Source: Streptomyces sp. NBC_00224
GTDB lineage: Bacteria > Actinomycetota > Actinomycetes > Streptomycetales > Streptomycetaceae
Direction of reading: 5' to 3'
DNA: 64,000 bases
Assembly: GCF_041435195.1 (NCBI RefSeq)
Contig: NZ_CP108106.1
Coordinates: 3,348,001 to 3,412,000, forward strand
Positions 57,401-64,000 of the stretch are shown one piece after another. Each line of letters starts with the position of its first letter. Positions within the stretch are counted from its first letter, which is position 1. Position numbers and translations under genes: made by a program. A model generated the notes under the pieces. It was not told the DNA's origin and ran no database searches. It was given only the letters and a program-made list of their open reading frames with translations.

Positions 57401-57829
57401 GTGGCGACGGCTGGACCACCCGTACGCGGCCGGTCGACCAAGCAGCGGGCCGCCGTGGCGGCGGCCCTCGACCAGGTGGACGAGTTCCGCAGCGCGCAGG
57501 AGCTGCACGACATGCTCAGACACCGGGGTGACTCGGTGGGGCTGACCACGGTCTACCGCACCCTGCAGTCGCTCGCCGACGCCGGCGAGGTCGACGTGCT
57601 GCGCACCAGCGACGGCGAGTCGGTCTACCGGCGCTGCTCGTCGGGCGACCACCACCACCATCTGGTCTGCCGGATGTGCGGCAAGGCCGTCGAGGTCGAG
57701 GGCCCGGCGGTGGAGAAGTGGTCCGAGGCGATCGCCGAGCAGCACGGCTTCGTCAACGTGGCGCACACCGTGGAGATCTTCGGCACCTGCGCGGAGTGCG
57801 CGGCGGCCGCGGCGGCCGCGGAGAAGTAG
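57401..57829 (+). CDS. zur: Zinc uptake regulator, Fur family
   Basis: A 142-residue Fur-family repressor. The winged helix is 'STKQRAAVAAALDQVDEFRSAQELHDMLRHRGDSVGLTTVYRTLQSLADAGEVDVLRT', followed by the dimer/metal domain 'DHHHHLVCRMCGKAVEVEG' and 'HTVEIFGTCAECAAAAAA' (two CxxC pairs for structural zinc, His cluster for the sensing site). GTG at 57401 after GGGAGG. It is last in the znuACB-zur operon, so it represses its own synthesis when zinc is sufficient. Confidence 0.94.
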   Translation: MATAGPPVRGRSTKQRAAVAAALDQVDEFRSAQELHDMLRHRGDSVGLTTVYRTLQSLADAGEVDVLRTSDGESVYRRCSSGDHHHHLVCRMCGKAVEVEGPAVEKWSEAIAEQHGFVNVAHTVEIFGTCAECAAAAAAAEK

Positions 57830-57891: not shown

Positions 57892-57953
57892 CGCGTACCC
57901 GGCGCGAGGGGCACTTGCAGACCGGGTGTCCCGTTCGTAGCGCGCCGGAACTC

Positions 57954-57985
57954 TGGATTCAGCCGTGAGCAACCGGCTGAATCCA
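57954..57985. promoter_or_regulatory. 12-bp perfect inverted repeat in the zur/receptor gap
   Basis: TGGATTCAGCCG (57954-57965) and CGGCTGAATCCA (57974-57985), loop of 8. It is 70 bp past the zur terminator and 120 bp before the receptor's ARE. The rest of the 57830-58193 gap has no gene. It may be an operator or a second hairpin. Confidence 0.5.
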
Positions 57986-58104
57986 GCCGTCAGAACATAC
58001 GTCGATGTCGCCCCACTGCGCCTTAAGTGCAGGTCAGCGAGGTGGAGCGCGGATGCGTTCGGGCCACTCCGGGAACGCTTTGGGCCAGACTCGACCAGGA
58101 CTAA

Positions 58105-58126
58105 AGAAACCGTCGGGTTGGTTTCT
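58105..58126 (+). promoter_or_regulatory. ARE-type operator in front of the butyrolactone-receptor gene
   Basis: AGAAACC-n8-GGTTTCT (22 bp, arms perfect) ends at 58126, directly before a TACAAT -10 box (58128-58133). Size and AAACC/GGTTT core match autoregulatory elements bound by ScbR/ArpA-type receptors. The same geometry occurs at 60658-60679. Confidence 0.7.
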
Positions 58127-58193
58127 ATACAATCTCCTCCTTGGCTCCTGTCCTGCAGAAGCCCCCTCCTTCATGCGACAACGGAGTTACACC

Positions 58194-58832
58194 ATGAGCA
58201 AGCAGCAACGGGCTGAGCGGACACGTCAGACGCTGATCCTGGCCGCGGCCGAGGTGTTCGACACGGACGGCTTCGCACCGTCCTCACTGACCGCGATCAG
58301 CACCCGGGCCGGCGTCAGCAACGGGGCGCTGCACTTCCACTTCGTCAGCAAGAACGCCCTGGCCGAGGCCGTCTGCGACCACGCCATGGCGTCCCTGCGG
58401 CAGATCGCGCGCCCGCGCGACACCGGGCACGGCCGGGCGCTCCAGGTCCTCGTGGACACCACGCACGCGCTGGCGTTCCGGCTCGGCGACGACGTGATCC
58501 TGCGGGCCGGGTTCGGGCTCAGCTCCGACGCGACCTGGAAGGGGGCGACGGACCTGCGCCAGTACTGGGTCGACTGGGTGGGCGACGTGCTGGCCGGGGC
58601 GGCCGCCGAGGGCGCGCTCGCCGACGGGGTCGCGGTGGAGGACGCCAAGGCGGTGATCGCGGCGACCACCGTCGGCTTCGAGGCGATGGGGCGCAGCCAA
58701 CCGCGCTGGTTCTCGCGGCAGATGTTCGGCAAGTTCTGGGGGCTGCTGCTGCCCCGGCTGGCCCGGGCCGACGCGCTCGGCGCCCTGAAGCCCGACGGCA
58801 GCCCGGGGCTGGCGGCGGCGCTGCCTTTGTAG
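58194..58832 (+). CDS. Gamma-butyrolactone receptor-like TetR regulator (ArpA/ScbR family)
   Basis: A 212-residue protein whose N-terminus is the family hallmark: 'KQQRAERTRQTLILAAAEVFDTDGFAPSSLTAISTRAGVSNGALHFHFVSKNALAEAV'. The C-terminal ligand pocket includes the characteristic Trp region 'SDATWKGATDLRQYWVDWV'. Such proteins repress antibiotic regulators until a butyrolactone or butenolide (or, for pseudo-receptors, the antibiotic) binds. ATG at 58194 with CGGAG upstream. Its own promoter and that of the convergent SARP gene carry ARE-like palindromes. No AfsA-type synthase gene is in the window. Confidence 0.85.
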   Translation: MSKQQRAERTRQTLILAAAEVFDTDGFAPSSLTAISTRAGVSNGALHFHFVSKNALAEAVCDHAMASLRQIARPRDTGHGRALQVLVDTTHALAFRLGDDVILRAGFGLSSDATWKGATDLRQYWVDWVGDVLAGAAAEGALADGVAVEDAKAVIAATTVGFEAMGRSQPRWFSRQMFGKFWGLLLPRLARADALGALKPDGSPGLAAALPL

Positions 58833-58872
58833 GGGCCGCTATTAGGGGCTGCGGCGGATCCCCGCCGCACCG

Positions 58873-58950
58873 GACGTGTTCGGGCGCCGAGGTGAGTGCG
58901 TGTCCCGCCCCCCGACGGGACACGCACTCACCTCGGCGCCCGAACACGTC
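58873..58950. terminator. Perfect 35-bp stem hairpin between convergent receptor and SARP genes
   Basis: The arms 58873-58907 and 58916-58950 are exactly complementary over all 35 bases around an 8-base loop (CCCCCCGA). It begins GACGTGTTCGGGCGCCGAGG. It lies in the 142-bp gap between two converging genes, so termination in both directions is the simplest role. There is no T-tract, and the length and perfection are unusual. Confidence 0.7.
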
Positions 58951-58974
58951 GAAGGCCACGGGCGGCGCGGGCGG

Positions 58975-60603
58975 TCAGGCCCCGATCCGCCGGGGCGGCC
59001 GCGCGAAGGGCGCGGAGTACGCCGCAGCCGCCGCCGAGCCCGGACGGGCGTACACCTCACGCACCCGCCAGTGCCGCGGGGAGCCCTCGGCCGGGCCGTA
59101 GGAGACCTCGGGTCCGGCGGCCGCGCGGGAGTCGTCGCAGACGAGGATCTCGCCGGGCGCGGCCAGCGCCAGCAGCCGCTGGCAGAGGTCCAGGAGCGCC
59201 CCGTTGACGGACAGCGGGGTGCCGGAGTCGCCGGGCGCGAAGCGGACCAGCGCCTCACCGGTCGCCACCGCCGCGTGCAGGGTCAGGCCCGGGTCGGCGT
59301 GCGAGCGGCGGACGGCGGTCCGGCCGGGCGGGGCGACCGCGTCGCGTACGGCGGCGGCCGCCCGCAGCGCGCGCAGGGCGGCGCCCACCCGTCCCGTACC
59401 GTCCCCGCCGTCCTCCTCGTCCTGGAAGAGACCGAGCGAGACCGGGCCGATGGAGCCGACGACACGGCCGCCGAAGTGCTCGATCCGCGCGCGCGTGGCC
59501 CCGCTGACCCGCTCCAGCGTCTCGTCAAGAGCGACCGCCCGGTCGGGCTGGAGCGCGTCGTCGAGGTGGACCGCCCCTGGGGCGATCCTGGTCTGCACGA
59601 GGAGCACGCTCAGCGCCTGACGTCGCATCACATCGGGTCGTACGACAGCCCGTTGGGGCACGTTCACCGCGCGCGACGGCGCCGTACGCTCGGGGGCGTG
59701 GCCGTGCCTGCGGTGCCCGGAGACTGCGGTCAGCGTACGGCGCCGGTCAGCGCGTTCGCACGGCTGGTCGGCGGCGGGGACGGGCGCGAGCGACGTCGGC
59801 TGCGCGGGTGCGGCGGCCGGGCGCGGGGGCGCGAGGCCCAGGGACGGATCCTGGGCGAGGATCGCCTGCTGGAGGCGGCGCAGCTCGCGGCCGGGCTCCA
59901 GGCCGAGGTCCTCGACCAGAGTGGCGCGCAGGCGGTTGTAGACGGCGAGCGCGTGGGCCTGCCGCCCGCAGCGGTACAGGGCCAGCATCAGCAGCCCCGA
60001 GCTGCGCTCGCGCAACGGCTCGGCCTCGACGGCGGCTTCCAGCTCGCCGAGGACCGCGTAGTGCTGGCCGCACGCCAGCTTCGCCTCGAAGTAGTCCTCC
60101 AGGACGTCGAGCCGGGTGTTCTGCACGGCCGTGAGCTCGGGCCACATGATGCCGGTCTCGGCGAGGTCGGCGAGCGCCGGGCCGCGCCACAGGCCGAGTG
60201 CCGCGCCGAGCGAGGCGACGGCCGCCTCGGGCCGCCCGCCCGCGAGTTCGGCCCGCCCCTCTCCGACCCGGCGCCGGAAGACGTTCAGGTCGATCTGCTC
60301 GGGGTCGGTCCGGATCAGGTACCCGGGAGCCCGGGTGACCAGCTCGGCCGCACCCCCGGCGCCGTCGGGGCCGCCCCCGGCGAGGGTCCCGCGGAGCCCC
60401 CACACCGCGTTCTGCAGGATCTTCCGCGCCGTGACGGGCGTGTTGTCCGCCTGCCAGAGCGCGGCCAGCAGTCGGCTCGTCGGGACGACCTGGTTGGCCT
60501 GCAGCAGCAGACAGCCCAGCGTCGCCCGCTGCTTGATTCCCCCCAGTGGGACCTGCTGGTCGCCGGACATCACCTCCAGCGGGCCCAACATCCTGAAGCG
60601 CAT
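58975..60603 (-). CDS. SARP-family regulator with BTAD and degenerate nucleotidyl-cyclase domain
   Basis: A 542-residue activator. The OmpR-like DNA-binding domain is 'MRFRMLGPLEVMSGDQQVPLGGIKQRATLGCLLLQANQVVPTSRLLAALW...', with 'APGYLIRTDPEQIDLNVFRR' (about 1-110). The BTAD domain is 'GLWRGPALADL...LEDYFEAKLACGQHYAVLGELEAAVEAEPLRERSSGLLMLALYRCGRQAHALAVY' (to ~255). The C-terminal ~240 residues resemble class III cyclases ('FGGRVVGSIGPVSLGLF', 'LTLHAAVATGEALVRF', 'NGALLDLCQRLLALAAPGEILV'), but both metal-binding Asp are absent. ATG 60603 with GGGGGAG upstream. A perfect ARE palindrome lies in its promoter. Confidence 0.85.
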   Translation of the reverse strand: MRFRMLGPLEVMSGDQQVPLGGIKQRATLGCLLLQANQVVPTSRLLAALWQADNTPVTARKILQNAVWGLRGTLAGGGPDGAGGAAELVTRAPGYLIRTDPEQIDLNVFRRRVGEGRAELAGGRPEAAVASLGAALGLWRGPALADLAETGIMWPELTAVQNTRLDVLEDYFEAKLACGQHYAVLGELEAAVEAEPLRERSSGLLMLALYRCGRQAHALAVYNRLRATLVEDLGLEPGRELRRLQQAILAQDPSLGLAPPRPAAAPAQPTSLAPVPAADQPCERADRRRTLTAVSGHRRHGHAPERTAPSRAVNVPQRAVVRPDVMRRQALSVLLVQTRIAPGAVHLDDALQPDRAVALDETLERVSGATRARIEHFGGRVVGSIGPVSLGLFQDEEDGGDGTGRVGAALRALRAAAAVRDAVAPPGRTAVRRSHADPGLTLHAAVATGEALVRFAPGDSGTPLSVNGALLDLCQRLLALAAPGEILVCDDSRAAAGPEVSYGPAEGSPRHWRVREVYARPGSAAAAAYSAPFARPPRRIGA

Positions 60604-60657
60604 AGCTCCCCCGGTCCTGTGTGCACAGTCGTGCCGCATTGACTCGTTGAAGAGATT

Positions 60658-60679
60658 ACAAACCGGAATCCCGGTTTGT
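60658..60679 (-). promoter_or_regulatory. Perfect ARE palindrome in the SARP promoter
   Basis: ACAAACCGG-AATC-CCGGTTTGT is a flawless 9-4-9 palindrome, 55 bp upstream of the SARP ATG. It is a textbook autoregulatory element for a butyrolactone receptor and shares the AAACC-n8-GGTTT frame with the receptor's own site. Confidence 0.82.
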
Positions 60680-60850
60680 CAAAGCCGCTAAACCAGTACG
60701 AAATCCCCCAAAGGCTCAAGCCGATTGCCGAGTTCGAGCCCTGCGCAAGCAGAGGAACCGTACGACAGGGCGGTTTTAGTGTGCCTTACGGGGTGGCGAC
60801 CGCACCCGGCGTACGGGCAAATCACGAGAGGAGCCCGCTCGCCGGCCCAC

Positions 60851-60890
60851 TCCGGCTCGCTCCGGCTCGCTCCGATTCGTTCCGGTTCAC
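60851..60890. repeat. Four tandem 10-bp repeats (TCCGGCTCGC type)
   Basis: TCCGGCTCGC twice, then TCCGATTCGT and TCCGGTTCAC, in direct tandem. They lie mid-way in the 688-bp gap between the SARP and carboxylase genes (60604-61291), which also holds the two ARE-type sites but no gene. Confidence 0.7.
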
Positions 60891-61224
60891 CTGGGCTCCG
60901 CCCTCAACTGACTCAAGGGTCACTACAACTGCCGGGAGAGCGAGGAATTCAAGGGTTCCGTTTCCCGCGATCAGGAATGCATTTCGTCGGCCGATCGCCG
61001 GCCGGGGCCGAAGTCAACCCCGAAGTGATTTCCGGCAATTCCCTGCCACACGGGACCACTCGGGGTGGGCCCCACCTGCGGCGCGGCCCCGACTCCCGGG
61101 CACGCCAGGGGCCTTGGGTGGGCCCGTCCGGTACTCGGCACTCCCCGTTTGACTTCCGGACGGTGGACAACTGCGGAGTAACGCCGGATACGGTCCCTCA
61201 AGGATGCTTCGAGGGTGGAGCTGT

Positions 61225-61246
61225 ACAAACCCACTCGGTGTTTCGT
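61225..61246 (+). promoter_or_regulatory. Imperfect ARE-like site before the carboxylase gene
   Basis: ACAAACC at the left and GTTTCGT at the right match the ARE at 60658 in the left half, with mismatches in the right half. It ends 46 bp before the GTG. It suggests, weakly, that the carboxylase operon belongs to the same regulon. Confidence 0.35.
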
Positions 61247-61291
61247 TCTCGATCTTTCCACTTCAGCACCGCAAGTTGAGGAGCAGTCGTC

Positions 61292-63049
61292 GTGCGCAAG
61301 GTGCTCATCGCCAACCGTGGTGAAATCGCTGTCCGCGTTGCCCGAGCCTGTCGGGACGCCGGGATCGCCAGCGTAGCCGTCTACGCCGATCCGGACCGGG
61401 ACGCTCTGCACGTCCGCGCGGCCGACGAAGCATTCGCTCTGGGCGGTGACACCCCGGCCACCAGCTACCTGGACATCGCCAAAGTCCTCCAGGCCGCCGC
61501 CGACTCCGGCGCCGACGCGATCCACCCGGGTTACGGCTTCCTCTCCGAGAACGCCGACTTCGCCCAGGCCGTCCTCGACGCCGGTCTGACCTGGATCGGC
61601 CCGCCGCCGCAGGCCATCCGCGACCTCGGCGACAAGGTCGCCGCCCGCCACATCGCCCAGCGCGCCGGCGCCCCCCTGGTCGCCGGCACCCCCGACCCGG
61701 TCTCCGGCGCCGACGAAGTCGTCACCTTCGCCGAAGAACACGGCCTCCCCATCGCGATCAAGGCCGCCTTCGGCGGCGGCGGCCGCGGCCTCAAGGTCGC
61801 CCGCACCCTCGAAGAAGTCCCCGAGCTCTACGACTCCGCCGTCCGCGAGGCCGTCGCCGCCTTCGGCCGCGGCGAATGCTTCGTCGAGCGCTACCTGGAC
61901 AAGCCCCGCCACGTCGAGACCCAGTGCCTCGCCGACACCCACGGCAACGTCGTCGTCGTCTCCACCCGCGACTGCTCACTCCAGCGCCGCCACCAAAAAC
62001 TCGTCGAAGAGGCCCCCGCGCCGTTCCTGAGCGAGGCACAGAACGCGGAGCTGTACGCCGCCTCCAAGGCCATCCTCAAGGAAGCCGGCTACGTCGGCGC
62101 CGGCACCGTCGAGTTCCTCGTCGGCACCGACGGCACCATCTCCTTCCTCGAAGTCAACACCCGCCTCCAGGTCGAACACCCGGTCACCGAAGAAGTCACC
62201 GGCATCGACCTCGTCCGCGAAATGTTCCGCATCGCCGACGGCGAGGAACTCGGCTACGGCGACCCCGAGATCCGCGGCCACTCCTTCGAGTTCCGCATCA
62301 ACGGCGAGGACCCCGGCCGCGGCTTCCTCCCCGCCCCCGGCACGGTGACGCTCTTCGCCCCGCCCACCGGCCCGGGCGTGCGCCTGGACGCCGGCGTCGA
62401 ATCCGGCTCCGTCATCGGCCCCGCCTGGGACTCCCTCCTCGCCAAACTGATCGTCACCGGCGCCACCCGCGAACAGGCCCTGCAACGCGCCGCCCGCGCA
62501 CTCGGCGAGTTCAAGGTCGAAGGCATGGCCACCGCCATCCCCTTCCACCAGGCCGTCGTCGTCGACCCCGCCTTCACCGCCGACCCGTTCCGCATCCACA
62601 CCCGCTGGATCGAAACTGAATTCGTCAACGCCATCCCGGCGTTCGTCCCCCCTGCGACCGACGGGGACGAGGAGGCGGCCACCGAGCGGGAGTCGGTGGT
62701 GGTCGAGGTCGGCGGCAAACGCCTCGAAGTCTCGCTGCCCTCTTCCTTGGGCATGACGCTCGCTCGTACGGGCCTCGCGGCCGGGGCCAAGCCCAAGCGC
62801 CGGGACAAGAAGAAGACGGGATCCGCCATTTCGGGTGACGCGCTGGCGTCCCCGATGCAGGGCACGATCGTCAAGGTCGCCGTCGAAGAGGGCCAGGAAG
62901 TCAAGGAAGGCGACCTCGTCGTCGTCCTCGAAGCCATGAAGATGGAACAGCCCCTCAACGCCCACCGCTCCGGCACCATCAGGGATCTCGCCGCGGCGGT
63001 GGGCGCGTCCGTCACGTCCGGCGCCACCATCTGCGAAATCAAGGGTTGA
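61292..63049 (+). CDS. accA: Acyl-CoA carboxylase alpha subunit (biotin carboxylase + biotin carrier domain)
   Basis: A 585-residue protein. The biotin carboxylase part runs from '[24 protein letters not shown]', with ATP-grasp '[14 protein letters not shown]', '[16 protein letters not shown]', '[19 protein letters not shown]', catalytic '[22 protein letters not shown]', to ~residue 450. A linker leads to the carrier domain with biotinyl Lys550 in 'EAMKMEQP'. Like AccA1/AccA2 of S. coelicolor, it would carboxylate acetyl- or propionyl-CoA with a separate beta subunit, supplying malonyl/methylmalonyl-CoA. GTG at 61292 after GAGGAG; 11 bp before the next gene. Probably an extra, cluster-linked copy. 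Confidence 0.92.
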
Positions 63050-63060
63050 GGAGCCACCCA

Positions 63061-64000
63061 ATGCTGAAGGAAGTCAAGCGTCTTGATCGGGTGATCATCC
63101 GTTTCGCGGGTGATTCGGGTGACGGGATGCAGCTGACGGGCGACCGGTTCACGTCGGAGACCGCCTCGTTCGGCAACGATCTGTCGACCCTGCCGAACTT
63201 CCCCGCCGAGATCCGTGCTCCCGCAGGGACCCTGCCCGGTGTCTCCAGCTTCCAGCTCCACTTCGCCGACCACGACATCCTCACCCCGGGCGACGCGCCC
63301 AACGTCCTGGTCGCCATGAACCCCGCCGCGCTGAAAGCCAACCTCGCGGACGTGCCGCGCGGCGCGGACATCATCGTCAACACCGATGAGTTCACCAAAC
63401 GCCCGATGGCGAAGGTCGGTTACGCCACCAACCCGCTGGAAGACGGCACCCTGGACGCCTACAACGTCCACCCCGTCCCCCTCACCACCCTGACGGTGGA
63501 GGCGCTGAAGGACTTCGGCCTGCCGCGCAAGGAGGCCGAGCGCAGCAAGAACATGTTCGCGCTGGGTCTGCTGTCGTGGATGTACCACCGCCCCACCGAG
63601 GGCACCGAGCGCTTCCTGCGGCAGAAGTTCGCCAAGAAGCCGGAGATCGCCGAGGCGAACGTGGCGGCGTTCCGGGCGGGCTGGAACTTCGGCGAGACCA
63701 CCGAGGACTTCGCGGCCTCCTACGAGGTCGCCCCGGCCACCAAGGCCTTCCCCACCGGTACGTACAGGAACATCTCCGGGAACCTGGCTTTGGCATACGG
63801 GCTGATCGCCGCGGGCCGCCAAGCGGACCTGCCCCTGTATCTCGGCTCGTATCCGATCACCCCGGCCTCGGACATCCTGCACGAACTGTCCAAGCACAAG
63901 AACTTCGGCGTCCGCACCTTCCAGGCCGAAGACGAAATCGCCGGAATCGGCGCCGCGCTGGGAGCCGCCTTCGGCGGATCCCTCGCGGTCACCACCACCT
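63061..64000 (+). CDS. korA: 2-oxoacid:acceptor (2-oxoglutarate:ferredoxin) oxidoreductase alpha subunit, partial
   Basis: An open frame to the window edge (313 codons seen). 'RLDRVIIRFAGDSGDGMQLTGDRFTSETASFGNDLSTLPNFPAEIRAPAGTLPGVSSFQLHF' is the gamma-domain start of OFOR alpha subunits; 'NISGNLALAYGLIAAGRQADLPLYLGSYPITPASDILHELSKHKNFGVRTFQAEDEIAGIGAALGAAFGG' is the pyrimidine/TPP-associated domain. It would oxidatively decarboxylate a 2-oxoacid to acyl-CoA, reducing ferredoxin, with a beta subunit expected downstream. ATG at 63061 with GAGGAG, 11 bp after the carboxylase, so co-transcribed. The accA-korA pairing echoes SCO6271-SCO6270 of the coelimycin (cpk) cluster as I recall it. Confidence 0.88.
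   Translation, partial: MLKEVKRLDRVIIRFAGDSGDGMQLTGDRFTSETASFGNDLSTLPNFPAEIRAPAGTLPGVSSFQLHFADHDILTPGDAPNVLVAMNPAALKANLADVPRGADIIVNTDEFTKRPMAKVGYATNPLEDGTLDAYNVHPVPLTTLTVEALKDFGLPRKEAERSKNMFALGLLSWMYHRPTEGTERFLRQKFAKKPEIAEANVAAFRAGWNFGETTEDFAASYEVAPATKAFPTGTYRNISGNLALAYGLIAAGRQADLPLYLGSYPITPASDILHELSKHKNFGVRTFQAEDEIAGIGAALGAAFGGSLAVTTT

Follow-up and report, generated by a model that had tools for sequence, protein, structure and literature searches.

We analyzed a 64-kb window of Streptomyces sp. NBC_00224 (G000:C1:3348001-3412000, in a 9.18-Mb genome of three contigs) together with 72 kb to its right, 136 kb altogether. Between zur, the left core flank, and uppS on the right, a locus spanning 57.9-70.4 kb was found that we read, with a probability of about 0.75, as a reduced relative of the coelimycin (cpk) cluster. 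It would hold the regulatory, signal-making, and precursor-supplying part of such a cluster without the polyketide and tailoring genes, and would work as the circuit described below. Most likely, it represents a self-contained butyrolactone circuit that has outlived its antibiotic and may still make and sense a signal modified by a cytochrome P450. A first-pass annotation, made from the window alone, had reported a receptor, a SARP (Streptomyces antibiotic regulatory protein), accA1, and korA directly after zur; all four were present by profile matches, and its reading of butyrolactone-type control joined to the precursor genes accA1 and korA was right. Positions above 64000 continue the window numbering past its edge, and positions in L004, a 20-kb stretch, equal window positions minus 56000. 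Gene starts come from a simple purpose-made gene caller. The genes and putative autoregulatory elements (AREs) are as follows.

57401..57829, +: zur (Fur family), left core flank; PF01475
58102-58129, no strand: ARE-like site of the receptor 1 gene; arms 58102-58111/58120-58129, 9/10 bp
58194..58832, +: receptor 1, ScbR2-like (apparent pseudo-receptor type); NF041196, 171 bits, cut-off 150
58975..60603, -: SARP, CpkO/KasO-like over its full length; BTAD, E 1e-48
60658-60679, no strand: SARP promoter ARE; perfect arms of 9 bp around a 4-nt spacer; kept in S. melanogenes
61292..63049, +: accA1, acyl-CoA carboxylase alpha subunit, apparently partly homogenized with the core copy; 93.4% nucleotide identity to core accA, mosaic sites
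63061..64917, +: korA, 2-oxoacid oxidoreductase alpha, crossing the window edge at 64000; profile search
64910-65974, +: korB
66036-66053, no strand: ARE after korB and before the P450 gene; kept in three species, with the orfB fossil between site and P450 gene here
66187-66312, +: orfB fossil, C-terminus of the cpk histidine kinase, 42 aa, between korB and the P450 gene
66369-67601, +: P450
67705-68550, -: NmrA/ScbB-like reductase
68580-69473, -: AfsA/ScbA-like synthase; NF041195, 342 bits, cut-off 200; PF03756
69680-70348, +: receptor 2, ScbR-like; NF041196, 216 bits, cut-off 150
70379-71221, -: uppS

Kinship to the cpk cluster and the search for polyketide genes

The order and orientation of ScbR2-CpkO-accA1-korA-korB-ScbB-ScbA-ScbR were the same as in the cpk clusters of G118 and G250, two genomes of our genus sample whose clusters fit the cpk gene list excerpted from PMC6667686; accA1, korAB, the SARP, and the receptors are on that list. 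This comparison bears out the relationship with scbRA/cpk of S. coelicolor that had been proposed from the window. Protein identities to G118 were 61% for ScbR2, 56% over 540 aa for CpkO, 89% for accA1, 70% for ScbB, 57% for ScbA, and 65% for ScbR, and receptor 1 was 60% identical to the gene in the ScbR2 position of G250. By its likeness to ScbR2 (60-61% identity), receptor 1 appears to be of the pseudo-receptor type, and the earlier suspicion to this effect seems right; the ScbR-like receptor lies outside the window. Calculated isoelectric points were 7.97 for receptor 1 versus 6.23 for receptor 2. Both receptors and AfsA scored above their curated cut-offs (NF041196 and NF041195). In the G118 cluster (L041 4725-7617), korA and korB were each split over two frames and CpkA was called as two open reading frames (ORFs), while G250 had single frames; the splits could reflect decay or an assembly error.

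The whole genome contained one AfsA match at E 1e-20, at this locus (15 of 19 first-look candidates were scored, and butenolide systems of the acyl-CoA-oxidase type were outside the search). The statement that no AfsA gene was in view was true of the window, but the gene lies 4.6 kb past its edge, and the signal therefore need not come from elsewhere as had been considered. The closest solved structure to the P450 was CYP154A1. No TTA codon was present in any island gene as called. The C-terminal ~240 residues of the SARP (window 58975-59706, -) gave no Pfam match up to E 5; this region is common to SARPs in the CpkO position, with 24 proteins matching at E 1e-5, the query included. By eye, it may resemble a degenerate domain of the nucleotide-cyclase type, as in PimR-like SARPs.

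Past korA came korB, P450, NmrA, AfsA, and the second receptor, and only then uppS and other core genes. Judged from their sequences rather than by family search, the genes after receptor 2 are presumably uppS, recO, leuA, and era. We searched the window plus 72 kb by tblastn at E 1e-5 with 17 cpk and ketosynthase queries, all of which matched in the positive control, G250 (17/17). The Cpk letters of the query, G118, and G250 genes were assigned by position, in what we take to be the cpk order. As observed, there was no match for the two ketosynthase queries, CpkA (N-terminal ORF), CpkB, CpkC, CpkD, CpkE, CpkG, CpkH, CpkK, ScF, or ScoT. CpkI matched generic short-chain dehydrogenase/reductase genes (28-29 kb), CpkF a major facilitator superfamily gene (40.7 kb), CpkN the SARP, CpkJ the NmrA gene, and orfB the fossil. 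Of the genes that the first-pass annotation had named to look for rightwards, korB and afsA were found and a polyketide synthase (PKS) was not in 136 kb; its polyketide-type cluster right of 64 kb is contradicted by the extended contig, which shows core genes and no ketosynthase.

The loci of two relatives, Streptomyces sp. CBMA152 (whole) and S. melanogenes (in parts on contigs), were likewise free of PKS genes. At E 1e-30, CpkG found no match in G000, CBMA152, S. melanogenes, or Streptomyces sp. ERV7, the last two being drafts with gaps, and did find its self-match in G118. This absence in all four island genomes, two drafts among them, indicates that these cluster genes have not just moved to another place in the genome.

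Between korB and the P450 gene, the orfB fossil was recognized at 55% identity (E 7e-8 with the 136 kb as target, E 2e-10 with the island intergenic regions). Its frame has a ribosome site and a start, and by eye its first residues are orfB-like. S. melanogenes has the same remnant, and the DNA matches were 67-71% for G000 and S. melanogenes. The fossil was not found in the CBMA152 island (L061 11790-13212). The korB-P450 gap is shorter there, with the operator and ribosome-site region kept, which fits a further step of reduction. On this evidence, the kinase was lost by internal deletion in this lineage with the operator retained, and a reduced cluster of the cpk type fits the locus better than an unrelated one. 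Loss of the PKS as well, as opposed to its never having been there, would be the more economical assumption. At E 0.1 the island intergenic regions gave no PKS relic; besides the orfB fossil, the only matches were two at chance level, to CpkN (22 aa) and CpkG (16 aa).

Compared with coelimycin of S. coelicolor, the locus shares ScbR2, CpkO, accA1, korA (cpkP alpha), korB (cpkP beta), ScbB, ScbA, and ScbR in order and orientation (genes according to the portion of PMC6667686 on this cluster; order compared via G118 and G250), as well as operator sites upstream of CpkO, upstream of the gene following korB, and in the scbA-scbR interval. It differs in being without PKS, ScF, CpkD-K, ScoT, CpkN (the second SARP), and export genes, in having orfB as a fossil with a P450 in its place, and in its site between zur and uppS.

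Putative operators, insertion site, and relatives

A search of the 9.18-Mb genome for the exact ARE core AAACCGGN4CCGGTTT gave two places, window 60660 and window-frame 66036, and both belong to the locus. The genome had no core with one mismatch, and cores with two mismatches were at 15 places versus nine places in all for a control pattern. S. melanogenes showed the same two exact places, in the locus only, plus one core with one mismatch; CBMA152 showed one exact core (P450) and three with one mismatch, and ERV7, whose locus sequence is incomplete, showed no exact core. The best site in G118 was a one-mismatch site before the CpkO gene. Such exact or near-exact searches are blind to degenerate sites such as ScbR2 uses.

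Intergenic alignments of G000, S. melanogenes, and CBMA152 showed that the sites are kept, the SARP site in the two species that have the SARP; a receptor-type site in the intergenic region between afsA and receptor 2 (L004:13474-13679) is kept in all three and in G118. A site for ScbR and ScbR2 before sco6268 is reported in the relevant part of PMC4595836, and the core that follows korB in G250 is part of this site. We regard the conserved sites as putative operators of the ScbR-like receptor. The site in the SARP promoter had been described as a perfect palindrome at 60658-60679; the 9-bp arms are indeed perfect, but the 4-nt centre is not. In L004, five sites with up to three mismatches were counted versus 0.57 expected, a number reached in 1/200 shuffles; three of them are operators described here and two are not. 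For the window alone the three-mismatch count was not unusual (3 versus 1.85; 27/100 shuffles). Thus, the ARE-like site given at 58105-58126, with 9/10 bp arms, does not stand out by window count and rests on its conservation in S. melanogenes and CBMA152 within a poorly conserved intergenic region. A half-site-like stretch near 61226 was considered as an ARE directly before accA1 and rejected, as it was not conserved. Between zur and receptor 1 (window 57953-57986), we also observed an inverted repeat with perfect arms of 13 bp and a loop of 8 nt, of which only part persists in S. melanogenes.

Elsewhere in Streptomyces, zur and uppS adjoin or lie near each other in most of the genomes examined. 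Among zur loci of other genomes, the 29 best matches were viewed, and 19 of them had uppS within the 1.5-kb flank; nine of the other ten (all but L205) were viewed wider, and uppS was ~1.5-5.5 kb off in eight, with none within ~6 kb in L241. The gap was 0.1 kb in G118, whose cpk cluster is elsewhere in the genome. No other island gene was found at the zur-uppS site in the 28 loci with both ends in view. CBMA152 carries the island complete between the same neighbors, except that the SARP was not found. S. melanogenes JCM 4398 carries it at the same site, with the SARP, on two contigs ending inside korB and accA1. From ERV7 there is a 3.3-kb contig fragment of the island only (L062). Such contig breaks in drafts mean that loci of this kind are easily missed or mis-assembled. 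As for signs of a mobile element, L004 had no tRNA, and no recombinase was among the Pfam/NCBIfam matches of nine locus genes.

Matches to AfsA at E 1e-90 were present in 16 of 392 genus genomes; apart from the own genome, identity exceeded 58% only in G172 (93%, residues 96-297, with match coordinates agreeing with those of ERV7, which is G152). Two further strains, Streptomyces sp. cg36 and TLI_146, came up through an AfsA at 81% and a SARP. The receptor-AfsA-NmrA-P450 set occurred in other settings at four further named loci of 80 (P450 67-70%). A general association of accA/kor genes with AfsA was rejected, given that the flanks of the 80 named AfsA loci, many of them short or cut by contig ends, contained korB in two, korA in one, and accA1 in three cases. 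Among eight korA loci from eight other genomes, L052 and L053 resemble core copies by their neighbors, and none of the other six (L054-L059) adjoins an AfsA gene like ours, L058 having distant AfsA-like genes (25 and 33%). Streptomyces sp. E2N166 was rejected as a second PKS-free example, because a type II PKS cluster comes after its accA1 (L251); two ketosynthase-like genes, an acyl carrier protein, and an oxygenase were read there from the sequences. In this strain the receptor-AfsA-NmrA-P450 set precedes the type II PKS cluster (L063, L251), and accA1 has 99.0% DNA identity to another copy in the same genome, possibly another conversion pair.

Ratios of nonsynonymous to synonymous substitution (dN/dS) against CBMA152 and S. 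melanogenes, respectively, were 0.17 and 0.22 for receptor 1, 0.16 and 0.16 for receptor 2, 0.29 and 0.15 for P450, 0.30 and 0.31 for NmrA, and 0.35 and 0.24 for AfsA; the SARP gave 0.37 (S. melanogenes only). These values suggest that the signal and receptor genes are maintained. For accA1/korAB the values were 0.08-0.14.

Probable overwriting of accA1, korA, and korB by core copies

The core copies of accA and korAB lie at G000:C1:5.69 and 5.39 Mb, 300 kb apart. DNA identity of the island genes to the own core copies was 93.4% for accA, 93.8% for korA, and 89.5% for korB, versus 89.8%, 86.6%, and 89.6% to the orthologous island of CBMA152. The korA protein was 98% identical to the own core copy, and among the matches listed from 150 genus genomes, best first, no other genome exceeded 93%; outside that sample, the CBMA152 core copy reached 94% and a partial ERV7 match 96%.

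Quartets were formed from the island and core copies of G000 and CBMA152, and sites were grouped by genome (S), by paralogue (P), or by neither (O). The S/P/O counts were 94/30/4 for accA, 98/25/9 for korA, and 23/29/4 for korB. The excess of P over O indicates that the island copies of the two genomes share ancestry, so that independent duplication per species was rejected for this pair (30:4, 25:9, 29:4), whereas the blocks of S sites point to later overwriting by core copies. The site patterns were clustered: accA1 showed 20 runs against a shuffled mean of 46 (0/10,000 as few), korA 27 against 41 (1/10,000), and korB 12 against 27 (0/10,000). These mosaic patterns indicate repeated gene conversion of accA1, korA, and korB by the core copies. 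Upstream of the accA1 start there was no homology to the core (45.8% over 277 columns).

In trees, island and core copies paired by genome for G000, G118, and G153 in accA, with moderate support for the G000 pair (80/86), and for G000 in korA, in a tree made without the partial rows of the G118 cpk part and ERV7. For CBMA152, the accA copies clustered along with a third one, and those of korA did not resolve. Between the two places in G118, accA was 99.6% identical and the C-terminal part of korA 99.9%. In the G000-G118 comparison of accA (S 151, P 1, O 1), paralogue-specific sites were wanting, and common origin is supported by gene order only. The contig breaks of S. melanogenes inside accA1 and korB fit near-identical repeats.

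S. coelicolor similarly has a nearly identical second AccA in its cpk-type locus, AccA1 and AccA2 being described as differing by four residues in a passage of PMC8062868 and as identical polypeptides in one of PMC13118682. Here, in contrast, the mosaic patterns seen between two species suggest that gene conversion is responsible, which would explain the near-identity of AccA1 and AccA2 in cpk-type strains. Conversion further predicts assembly gaps and ambiguous proteomics at accA1/korAB. Among the open-access titles and abstracts surveyed, none dealt with a PKS-free cpk locus or with gene conversion between accA1 and accA2.

Proposed circuit and alternative readings

From family and neighborhood, AfsA, the NmrA reductase, and the P450 would make a signal of the butyrolactone or butenolide type. 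The ScbR-like receptor 2, as the true receptor, would repress the operators at AfsA and itself, at the SARP, at the P450, and at the ScbR2-like gene until the signal accumulates. Upon release, the SARP would activate its targets, and the ScbR2-like receptor 1 would shut the circuit off, as modeled on S. coelicolor. The second accA, korA, and korB encode the same enzymes as the core genes and stand behind a different upstream region; they would probably serve to raise the enzyme dose whenever the circuit is active. The kasO and sco6268 promoters of S. coelicolor are bound by ScbR2, the sco6268 promoter is footprinted by ScbR as well, and accA2 is a target of both regulators (sections of PMC4595836), which gives a precedent for butyrolactone control of carboxylase dose. 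Because CBMA152 lacks the SARP, the SARP seems dispensable for keeping the rest and would not be the only output. More carboxylase and oxidoreductase, a distant cluster, the signal alone, or nothing are all conceivable outputs.

Related systems offer parallels for the P450. Those beside such receptors are proposed to tailor the signal, which is demonstrated for Cyp17 of S. avermitilis (avenolide), according to a portion of PMC7480387, and SrrO of S. rochei oxidizes the signal side chain, likewise demonstrated in an excerpt of PMC7564063. As in SrrX/SrrO, an AfsA-type synthase accompanies a P450 here; in contrast, the P450 here is closest to CYP154A1 among solved structures. In the sfb cluster of S. 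filipinensis, a receptor, a pseudo-receptor, an AfsA-type synthase, and a P450 also stand together with several AREs, and the text on sfb in PMC7480387 reports that sfb shows no synteny to other clusters of this kind and that its P450 carries a TTA codon. The present locus differs in keeping the cpk order, in having no TTA codon in its island genes, and in including accA1-korAB.

Several points weigh against the circuit as proposed. Signal production, receptor binding, and expression are predictions from sequence, and the action of the P450 on the signal is a neighborhood argument. No conserved ARE lies directly before accA1; control there may nonetheless exist, since in S. coelicolor a degenerate site ahead of accA1 is a target of ScbR2 (as stated in the part of PMC4595836 on this promoter). 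The low dN/dS of accA1/korAB cannot show function, as conversion alone would keep the copies intact. korB is as close to its own core copy as to the CBMA152 island (89.5% versus 89.6%), so that only the clustering of sites speaks for its conversion. With no PKS relic found, loss of the PKS, as opposed to gain in the cpk lineage, is parsimony and not proof.

Among the alternatives, a detached control locus deserves the most attention, although we would bet against it: the SARP and receptors would act in trans on a cluster elsewhere, with the signal as its trigger. The only AfsA match of the genome (E 1e-20) lies here, and in S. coelicolor numerous remote promoters are targets of ScbR and ScbR2, in part through degenerate sites that a core search misses (promoters covered in PMC4595836). 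However, no exact or one-mismatch ARE core lay outside the locus in G000, and in CBMA152 the other locus genes persist although the SARP is absent. It is improbable that the locus is an ancestral module into which a PKS was later inserted to give rise to cpk. The occurrence of the receptor-AfsA-NmrA-P450 set in other settings (four further named loci of 80) and the lack of PKS relics in the island intergenic regions are consistent with this, but gene loss in this lineage is documented by the orfB fossil, and a CpkO-like SARP with an ScbR2-like gene would be hard to assemble before any cluster.

A decaying relic without current function is less probable still. PKS, kinase, and, in CBMA152, SARP are absent, as expected from decay; nevertheless, the frames are open, the signal and receptor genes have dN/dS of 0.15-0.35 in two comparisons, and the operators are conserved. 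The first-pass view of an intact polyketide cluster continuing rightwards has almost nothing left to recommend it. Although accA1, korAB, the SARP, and the receptors are cpk-cluster genes in G118, G250, and the excerpted list of PMC6667686, it is refuted by the contig sequence, with what are presumably uppS, recO, leuA, and era to the right and no ketosynthase in 136 kb, and the relatives' loci (CBMA152 whole, S. melanogenes in parts) are PKS-free too.

We thus favor a reduced cpk-type locus with its own signal circuit. A more specific form of this reading is doubtful, though worth stating: having lost its antibiotic, the hormone circuit may gate central metabolism. The sole remaining enzyme output beyond the signal would then be additional acyl-CoA carboxylase alpha subunit and 2-oxoacid:acceptor oxidoreductase, with conversion keeping them interchangeable with the core enzymes and their promoter under control of the locus.

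Butyrolactone systems are usually read as switches of a neighboring antibiotic cluster. The present locus occupies a housekeeping position and adjoins no product gene, yet it retains the synthase of the signal, the two receptors, and the operators of a cpk-type cluster, as well as the SARP in two species out of three. The locus therefore lets one ask what a butyrolactone circuit does without an attached antibiotic.

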